DNA from: Rhodanobacter sp. B05 | Lineage (GTDB): Bacteria; Pseudomonadota; Gammaproteobacteria; Xanthomonadales; Rhodanobacteraceae | Direction: 5' to 3' | Length of the DNA: 64,000 bases | Assembly: GCF_002001085.1 (NCBI RefSeq) | Contig: NZ_MUNU01000006.1 | Coordinates: 1-64,000 of the forward strand | In this document: piece by piece, positions 39,125 through 45,542 of the stretch | How the letters are laid out: each line of letters begins with the position of its first letter | How positions within the stretch are numbered: position 1 is the stretch's first letter | The notes under the pieces: generated by a model | Databases searched by the model: none | Told to the model about the DNA's origin: nothing | The model's input: the letters and a program-made list of their open reading frames with translations, nothing else | Position numbers and translations under genes: made by a program

Positions 39125-39131
39125 GTCCCAT

Positions 39132-39160
39132 GTCATTCCTGCGCTGCGGTGAAGAGCGAT
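39132..39160. repeat. Degenerate copy of the palindromic repeat
   Basis: GTCATTCCTGCGC (39132-39144) matches the first half of the repeats that follow, and GAAGAGCGAT (39151-39160) is the reverse complement of the sequence just outside the copy at 39250. It looks like a scarred or partly deleted unit immediately after the dehydrogenase stop codon. Confidence 0.6.
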
Positions 39161-39181
39161 GACCAGCTTCGCTGTTGTAAA

Positions 39182-39275
39182 GCGATTCCTGCCTGCGCAG
39201 GAATGACAAGATAAAAGGAACGACACGTCTACCCATCACTTACACCATCGTCATTCCTGCGCAGGCAGGAATCGC
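39182..39275. repeat. Inverted palindrome pair, left side of the GIY-YIG gene
   Basis: A 26-bp unit at 39182-39207 (GCGATTCCTGCC then TGCGCAGGAATGAC) and its exact reverse complement at 39250-39275 are separated by 42 nt. Each unit is itself a hairpin: ATTCCTGC and GCAGGAAT arms with a four-base loop. The layout of two small hairpins in inverted order is that of a REPIN. The nuclease gene starts 22 bp to the right. Confidence 0.9.
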
Positions 39276-39296
39276 TCTTCACTACGAGGCATAGCC

Positions 39297-39590
39297 ATGG
39301 ACAGGCGACAACCCCGCGTCTACATGTTGGCGAGCAGGAAGAACGGCGTCCTCTACATCGGCGTCACCAGCGACCTGGTCAAGCGCATCTGGCAGCACAA
39401 GAACGACGTGGTGGAAGGTTTTACTCACCGTTATGGCATCCACACCTTGGTCTGGTATGAGCTTCATCCGACGATGGAGTCGGCGATCCTGCGCGAGAAG
39501 ACGCTCAAGCGGTGGAAGCGCGACTGGAAGATGCGCTTGATCGACGAGGGCAATGCCGAGTGGCGGGACTTGTATCCGACTATTCTGTAG
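39297..39590 (+). CDS. Single-domain GIY-YIG nuclease (YhbQ/COG2827 type)
   Basis: A 97-residue protein consisting of one GIY-YIG domain: the two tyrosines Tyr9 and Tyr20 (RVYMLASRKNGVLYIGVTS), catalytic Arg30 (LVKRIWQHK), the YGIHTLVWYEL strand, and the ESAILREKTLKRW helix with the conserved glutamate (Glu61 or Glu67). All core residues of an active endonuclease are present. Stand-alone members have no settled function and are often described as UvrC-like. Inverted palindrome pairs of the same family flank it at 22 bp upstream and 4-10 bp downstream, so gene and repeats form one compact block of about 500 bp between two unrelated genes. Confidence 0.92.
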   Translation: MDRRQPRVYMLASRKNGVLYIGVTSDLVKRIWQHKNDVVEGFTHRYGIHTLVWYELHPTMESAILREKTLKRWKRDWKMRLIDEGNAEWRDLYPTIL

Positions 39591-39594
39591 CCGT

Positions 39595-39687
39595 TGAAGT
39601 GCGATTCCTGCCTGCGCAGGAATGACAATGGTGGGCGGACGTCGCCTCTTTTACCGTCATTCCTGCGCAGGCAGGAATCGCACTTCA
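39595..39687. repeat. Inverted palindrome pair, right side of the GIY-YIG gene
   Basis: The same 26-bp unit as on the left lies at 39601-39626, with its reverse complement at 39656-39681, separated by 29 nt. Here the match extends outward to a 32-bp perfect inverted repeat (39595-39626 with 39656-39687). The order of the two orientations is identical to the left pair. The first arm starts four bases after the nuclease stop codon. Confidence 0.9.
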
Positions 39688-39719
39688 CACGCAACATGCA
39701 ACCCGAGCGGAGACACCCC

Positions 39720-45397: not shown

Positions 45398-45542
45398 GTC
45401 ACCCCGGCGAAGGCCGGGATCGCATTTGATCGCCCGCTGGTGCGTGCGGTGCGATGACTCGCTGCGCTCGCCCCTGCGGGGCCAGCCTTCGGCTGTTCAA
45501 CGCTCGCATGGCTCGCTTTTGTCCTGCCTTCGCAGGAATGAC
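45398..45542. repeat. Inverted pair of the GIY-YIG-type palindrome inside the efflux operon
   Basis: Unit 1 (45398-45423) reads GTCACCCCGGCG then AAGGCCGGGATCGC. Unit 2 (45517-45542) is in the opposite orientation and ends CTTCGCAGGAATGAC. Both keep the frame of the 39-kb repeats (GTC at one end, small hairpin, CGC or its remnant at the other) but with different stem sequences. The spacer is 93 nt. They lie between the RND permease stop and the lipoprotein start. Confidence 0.75.

Follow-up and report, generated by a model that had tools for sequence, protein, structure and literature searches.

The window analysed here is a stretch of 64,000 nucleotides from the genome of Rhodanobacter sp. 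B05. At positions 39182-39681 it carries a block in which a gene for a single-domain GIY-YIG nuclease of 97 aa (39297..39590, plus strand; intact ORF with a Pfam match) lies between four 26-bp hairpin units arranged as two inverted pairs. An earlier note had described an intact 97-residue nuclease flanked by four identical units, and coordinates and letter identity confirm this, the 26-mer GTCATTCCTGCGCAGGCAGGAATCGC being present in four letter-identical copies. The left pair consists of an outer unit (39182..39207, minus strand; DNA fold -7.5 kcal/mol, z -4.3) and an inner unit (39250..39275, plus strand; -7.7 kcal/mol, z -4.2), and the right pair of an inner unit (39601..39626, minus strand) and an outer unit (39656..39681, plus strand); the tails of both inner units point at the gene. 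Each pair is REPIN-like and is predicted to fold as a single long hairpin, with -36.1 kcal/mol (z -10.8) for the left pair (39176..39281) and -48.6 kcal/mol (z -14.3) for the right one (39595..39688). With the arms extended, the right pair forms an inverted repeat of 41 nt (90%) and the left pair one of 32 nt (94%). The inner left unit ends 21 bp 5' of the ATG, the inner right unit starts 10 bp 3' of the stop and its extended arm begins 4 bp past the stop codon; the unit-gene-unit span is 377 bp.

Allowing up to 3 mismatches, the 26-mer matches seven times in the window, versus 0.25 expected, and none of 100 shuffles reached seven; the whole genome holds 16 unit sites at up to 2 mismatches and none for the reversed control. 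Sequence comparison shows that the degenerate unit noticed earlier near 39132, left of the block, is real (39131..39164), and a similar remnant lies beside the lone unit of the gene-less allele of another genome of the genus (G017). What had been called a diverged pair at 45398, a description that holds only in broad terms, comprises one good CGC-tail unit (45398..45423, plus strand; its stem starts with AC instead of AT) and a partner split by a GC-rich insert of 66 bp (about 45456-45521). At the nuclease locus of G018 (L011), too, a unit is split by a very similar insert. A search of the window's genome for further copies of the 66-bp insert, with up to 3 mismatches allowed, gave this one copy alone; could it be a small element hitting REP units? 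A short string like GACCAGCTTCGCTGTTGTAAAGC likewise interrupts units, CGC-tail and CCA-tail alike, in a number of genomes (window positions 39149-39186; nrdA-nrdB spacers of G030 and G033). No known RNA family reached its gathering threshold between 38900 and 40000.

The protein matches Pfam GIY-YIG with E 2e-15 (57.2 bits, cut-off 22.6), and the columns invariant among 27 aligned rows include Y9, Y20, R30, H34 and E67, of which we take the two tyrosines, the arginine and the glutamate to be catalytic. Its structure model (pLDDT 93.7) resembles UPF0213, the UvrC N-domain and Slx1 (best Foldseek E 1.4e-3, probability 1.00), with no Foldseek match at E 0.001 or below; it shares fold and size with the single-domain UPF0213/GIY-YIG structures 1zg2 and 1ywl but only 28% and 18% identity, respectively, and nothing found in this analysis connects those two proteins with repeats. 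No NCBIfam model was found for it, and no PADLOC model identifies it as a defence gene. A weak match to the homing endonuclease family phrog_314 would suit a homing endonuclease remnant retained for another function, an extremely unlikely origin given that neither an intron nor an intein was seen on inspection of the ORF's surroundings, that purifying selection is evident (median dN/dS 0.12 over 45 ortholog pairs) and that the repeat sites would flank the gene rather than mark an empty allele.

Repeat units beside relatives of the nuclease

The hairpin unit is a CGTC-1-type REP palindrome. According to the accessible part of Di Nocera et al. 2013 (PMC3733652), this class, which includes dRS3, has a CGTC/TGTC tag, an 8-bp stem, a 4-nt loop and AT at the stem start, occurs as dimers that are mostly head-to-head, and has tails most of which, not all, fit CCA. 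The window units share the tag, stem, loop, AT start and dimers, but differ in that all four end in a CGC tail where CCA is usual and in their link to a GIY-YIG gene.

A scan of named genomes yielded at least 576 relatives of the window nuclease, the best 80 of which were kept; several of these come from metagenome bins and may be misassigned. Among the 74 of these 80 with both 250-bp flanks complete, 67 had a CGTC-type unit within 250 bp of the nuclease and 43 had units on both sides, the remaining seven having none within that distance. In control windows taken 500-2000 bp away at the same loci, units were present in 2/70, 2/66, 3/64 and 2/62 cases and never on both sides. A test independent of the unit definition gave the same picture within the best 80: the two flanks shared an exact string of at least 13 nt in 54 of 75 loci, compared with none of 64 controls. 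The tails beside these 80 homologs were almost all CCA, and among the matches listed a CGC tail beside a nuclease was seen only in the window clade. A homolog from N. gonorrhoeae (L124), 65% identical over residues 5-97, also has CGTC-type units in both flanks.

Conservation of the unit was followed in 127 CGC-tail units from nine genomes, drawn from the matches listed for the genus, less the tandem-array copies in G008 and G030 and every row from G006, G028, G031 and G032. Stem pair 3 is intact in 126 of these units and stem pair 6 in 122, with three different pairings at each (pairs 1, 2, 4 and 5 being fixed by the search pattern), and the loop is GAAG or GCAG in 117 of the 127. These substitutions indicate that stem bases compensate and that the hairpin form of the unit is preserved. 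Among 36 cases of oppositely oriented neighbours no more than 160 bp apart, 21 were identical, versus 6.9 expected from the genome's own pool; 23 of the neighbouring pairs in this set were oriented (+-) and 13 (-+). At nuclease loci, the left and right pairs of a genome are often unlike each other, while partners within a pair agree. Judged by these comparisons, the inverted pairs behave as units. CGC-tail units also occur in tandem arrays, one with a repeat period of about 79 bp (G030:C1:1193257-1193597) and one of about 153 bp (G008:C2:575836-576403), which suggests local amplification.

Nuclease clade and repeat class across the genus

CGC-tail and CCA-tail units were counted in 36 genomes of the genus and compared with the presence of the window-type nuclease (clade 1) and of the pooled sister clades. 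The median number of CGC units was 20 in the ten genomes with a clade-1 gene and 0 in the 26 without (p 2e-5, with G002 scored as gene-absent although a contig end cuts its gene; p 2.5e-6 when it is rescored as present), and these units were not associated with sister-clade genes (p 0.40, 36 genomes). Conversely, CCA units had a median of 28 in the 14 genomes with a sister-clade gene and of 4 in the 22 without (p 4e-5), and no association with the clade-1 gene (p 0.66, 36 genomes). Independent contrasts in 30 of the 36 genomes, resting on a single nrdA tree and omitting six genomes with incomplete nrdA (G002, G004, G010, G016, G019 and G022), gave r 0.62 (p 1.3e-4) for CGC units with clade 1 and r 0.68 (p 1.6e-5) for CCA units with the sister clades, and r -0.05 and -0.41 for the cross tests.

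Repeat features were also mapped on a tree of 114 nucleases, from which L085, L125, L067 and L075 had been left out as duplicates or cut genes. Stem base 6 required 10 changes (101 rows), compared with 41 for the lowest of 300 shuffles, the tail one change compared with 7 (101 rows), and loop base 4 16 changes compared with 23 (92 rows, A/G only). The margins shrink when only named organisms are considered (stem 7 versus 18-32, loop 12 versus 14-25), and 74 of the 111 inner branches are unresolved, so that the result describes clustering and not branching order. At the level of sequence, nuclease phylogeny predicts the stem, loop and tail of the repeat. The earlier note had asked whether repeat family and nuclease clade co-occur and co-diverge; this double dissociation by clade and the tree congruence indicate that they do.

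Some genomes do carry repeats without a matching nuclease, and these count against a partnership between the two. In G013 (10 CGC units), G020 (8) and G047 (10), no nuclease of the window family was found, profile search included; G017 (20 CGC units), G005 (9) and G006 (4) have only sister-clade genes. The ten CGC-tail units of G047 are an observation from another family of the same order. In G034, which has 5 CGC units, the only nuclease match is a weak one of 36 bits.

Two explanations in which the nuclease plays no part were weighed against these data. The strong folding of the units, together with the mostly downstream position of REPs relative to coding regions described in the accessible part of Di Nocera et al. 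(PMC3733652), would be in keeping with ordinary terminators or RNA hairpins and a nuclease gene that is a bystander in repeat-rich spacers. Neither the flank enrichment among the best 80 of at least 576 homologs (67/74 versus 2-3 in 62-70 controls) nor the double dissociation and the tree congruence would be expected then; a bystander gene or plain terminators do not account for clade-matched repeats, and we rejected this highly unlikely explanation on flank enrichment and co-variation. Alternatively, RAYT-type tyrosine transposases could move the repeats, the GIY-YIG gene being incidental, and a Y1_Tnp match is indeed present in 36 of 45 genus genomes. However, Y1 counts follow neither CGC units (Spearman p 0.39) nor CCA units (p 0.89) in 36 genomes, five clade-1 genomes without a Y1 match (G008, G012, G015, G021 and G035) nevertheless hold 6-47 CGC units, and only one of the 30 Y1 loci fetched had any unit. 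RAYT-driven repeats, the least probable of the explanations considered, were rejected on these counts and loci.

Block presence and absence at two sites

All ten complete clade-1 genes lie between the same neighbours, a sugar-dehydrogenase-like and a PEBP-like gene (named by eye). A first survey of this site covered 24 loci, of which 14 gave a PEBP-like start and ten did not, and the gene was present in six of the 14; a follow-up covered the ten missed loci and six others, with G016 and G019 ambiguous. Genomes with the gene at this site have 6-47 CGC units each (10 genomes). Where the gene is absent and one unit is left, the counts are 4, 8, 10 and 20 (G006, G020, G013 and G017), the relic unit being, by eye, one base off in G013 and degenerate in G006. 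Where both gene and unit are absent and the neighbours lie 74-165 bp apart, all five genomes (G003, G004, G010, G011 and G014) have no CGC units at all; in G010, G011 and G014 the gap between the dehydrogenase and PEBP-like genes is 74-118 bp, without a unit, as in G003 and G004. The dehydrogenase is missing from the site in G005 and G022, and the site is not syntenic in G001, G007, G009, G037 and G044.

A second site lies between nrdA and nrdB, for which loci from 30 of 45 genomes were surveyed, G029 giving no nrdA end. In the 29 readable genomes a sister-clade nuclease was present in ten, all with units, and absent in 19, of which 18 were unit-free. The site is filled in G017 and empty in G000 (the genome of the window) and G015, yet these two share 98% identity with G017 over an NrdA fragment of 452 aa. 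In G033 it is gene-less with a hybrid unit pair, which compared with G032 corresponds to one deletion from a left-pair unit to the same-orientation right-pair unit. Taken together, the states of the window site, of nrdA-nrdB and of G033 mean that blocks come and go and that the repeats were the route of one loss or more. The gene-less relic alleles and the G033 deletion could reflect ordinary repeat recombination without a role of the enzyme. The contents of the nrdA-nrdB spacer vary by species (L165-L194), including REP-nuclease blocks, a small ORF (MKRYRN..) that is presumably KTSC-like, and other palindromes and sequence, and the spacer looks like an insertion hotspot across the genus.

The proposal of the earlier note, that a GIY-YIG nuclease and REP-like repeats of its own form a partnership like that of RAYTs and REPs, had been tied beforehand to two observations that would speak against it, namely repeat abundance independent of nuclease presence in related genomes and an unvarying block. 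In the 36 genus genomes and in the phylogenetic contrasts abundance was not independent of the nuclease, and block state differed between relatives at both sites. The suggestion that the window block of about 0.5 kb is a recently mobile unit did not hold up, because all ten complete orthologs share one site, a pattern that old acquisition followed by later losses would give. As for an empty site in relatives, gene-less and unit-less alleles were seen, but comparison of the relatives' loci revealed no empty window site with a target duplication.

These data also bear on whether the enzyme mobilises REPs in the strict sense, as a GIY-YIG analogue of RAYT that both excises and copies inverted pairs, with unit-gene-unit as a minimal autonomous element. 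The nearest units at the 44 two-sided loci among the best 80 of at least 576 homologs would fit such an element, being tail-inward around the gene in 29, tail-outward in ten and oriented the same way in five, as would the excess of identical pair partners, the filled and empty nrdA-nrdB alleles of close relatives and the complete lack of CGC units in genomes with a bare window site. On the other hand, neither a target duplication nor an insertion exact to the base turned up in the loci examined, and the clade-1 orthologs occupy one common site. Moreover, GIY-YIG enzymes hydrolyse DNA, and we know of none with strand transfer activity. We regard a mobiliser as unlikely.

Possible activity and related systems

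The reading that we prefer, with a probability of about 0.68, is a nuclease-REP partnership, in which the small GIY-YIG nuclease would recognise the hairpin units lying beside its own gene and dispersed across the genome. It draws on the family-wide association, the clade match, the compensatory stems, the co-occurrence and the presence or absence of blocks between relatives. From these sequence comparisons we strongly infer that the nuclease recognises its repeats; by analogy with Neisseria Ssn and dRS3 it probably nicks them in folded form, and it probably maintains them. The enzyme would bind the unit as folded single-stranded DNA (a strand state suggested by Ssn and REPtrons), would take its cue from the tail and the constant GTCAT..CC flank and not from the stem bases, which vary, and, again by analogy with Ssn and REPtrons, would nick at or near the unit. 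Nicking of units exposed in replication, repair or DNA uptake would make them recombinogenic, and recombinogenic units in inverted pairs could be copied, converted or deleted, so that the repeat population would grow while the matching nuclease is present and decay after its loss. The nick may also limit incoming unit-bearing DNA. Within this partnership the window clade is, as its repeats indicate, one of switched specificity, with the tail CGC instead of CCA.

The partnership is not a wholly new idea, given that CGTC/dRS3 repeats have been described and that a Neisseria GIY-YIG nuclease acting on them has reportedly been published. This nuclease, Ssn, is reportedly the subject of a 2025 article in Nat Commun as a site-specific single-stranded GIY-YIG nuclease of Neisseria with the NTS repeat as target. 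It is said to cut only single-stranded DNA at its own repeat and to modulate natural transformation, its defining feature reportedly being a repeat target that adjoins the gene and exists in many copies. We take L124 of N. gonorrhoeae to be the Ssn ortholog. The window protein is like Ssn in its homology to the single-domain L124 (65%) and in the multi-copy repeat beside its gene, but its clade differs in the CGC tail and in the inverted pairs that bracket the gene, one to the left and one to the right. A word search of PMC12236230 and PMC12455585 gave no mention of Ssn. The likeness to the REPIN-RAYT (REPtron) systems, as far as the accessible parts of Bertels and Rainey 2011 (PMC3116915) and Corneloup et al. 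2021 (PMC8266576) describe them, lies in REP units paired in inverted orientation and folding into a single hairpin, an enzyme gene near the repeats and co-evolution; the window enzyme, however, is a GIY-YIG protein and not an HUH tyrosine transposase, and mobilisation is only a candidate reading for it.

In the genome that holds the window, a further GIY-YIG gene (G000:C12:322582-322878; L195, also L002) is flanked on both sides by unrelated palindromes of the GTTCGCCCTGAGC..TCGAAGG type. This motif, which was defined after reading the flanks, occurs within 250 bp of 11 of 12 closer homologs compared with 2 of 12 control windows, and of none of eight weaker homologs; the locus may represent another nuclease-repeat partnership.

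Palindromes of the REP type are widespread among bacteria, and the accessible part of Di Nocera et al. (PMC3733652) treats the CGTC REPs as one of two large superfamilies, for which no dedicated enzyme had been found in 2013. The window nuclease family is a strong candidate for that enzyme. More tentatively, and at somewhat less than even odds in our view, single-domain GIY-YIG proteins could be the missing CGTC REP enzymes in general, a second, non-HUH class of REPtron in which unit-gene-unit blocks of about 0.4-0.6 kb would act as minimal selfish elements and each clade would have its own repeat specificity; under this same tentative proposal the window clade would be a natural tail switch, and the parallel clade at G000:C12:322582 may use unrelated palindromes. 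The genus contains several nuclease clades with different repeat classes, in some cases side by side in a single genome, so that recognition and propagation are open to direct test, and the switch of tail in one clade provides a ready-made way of asking how a nuclease of 97 residues would read a hairpin.
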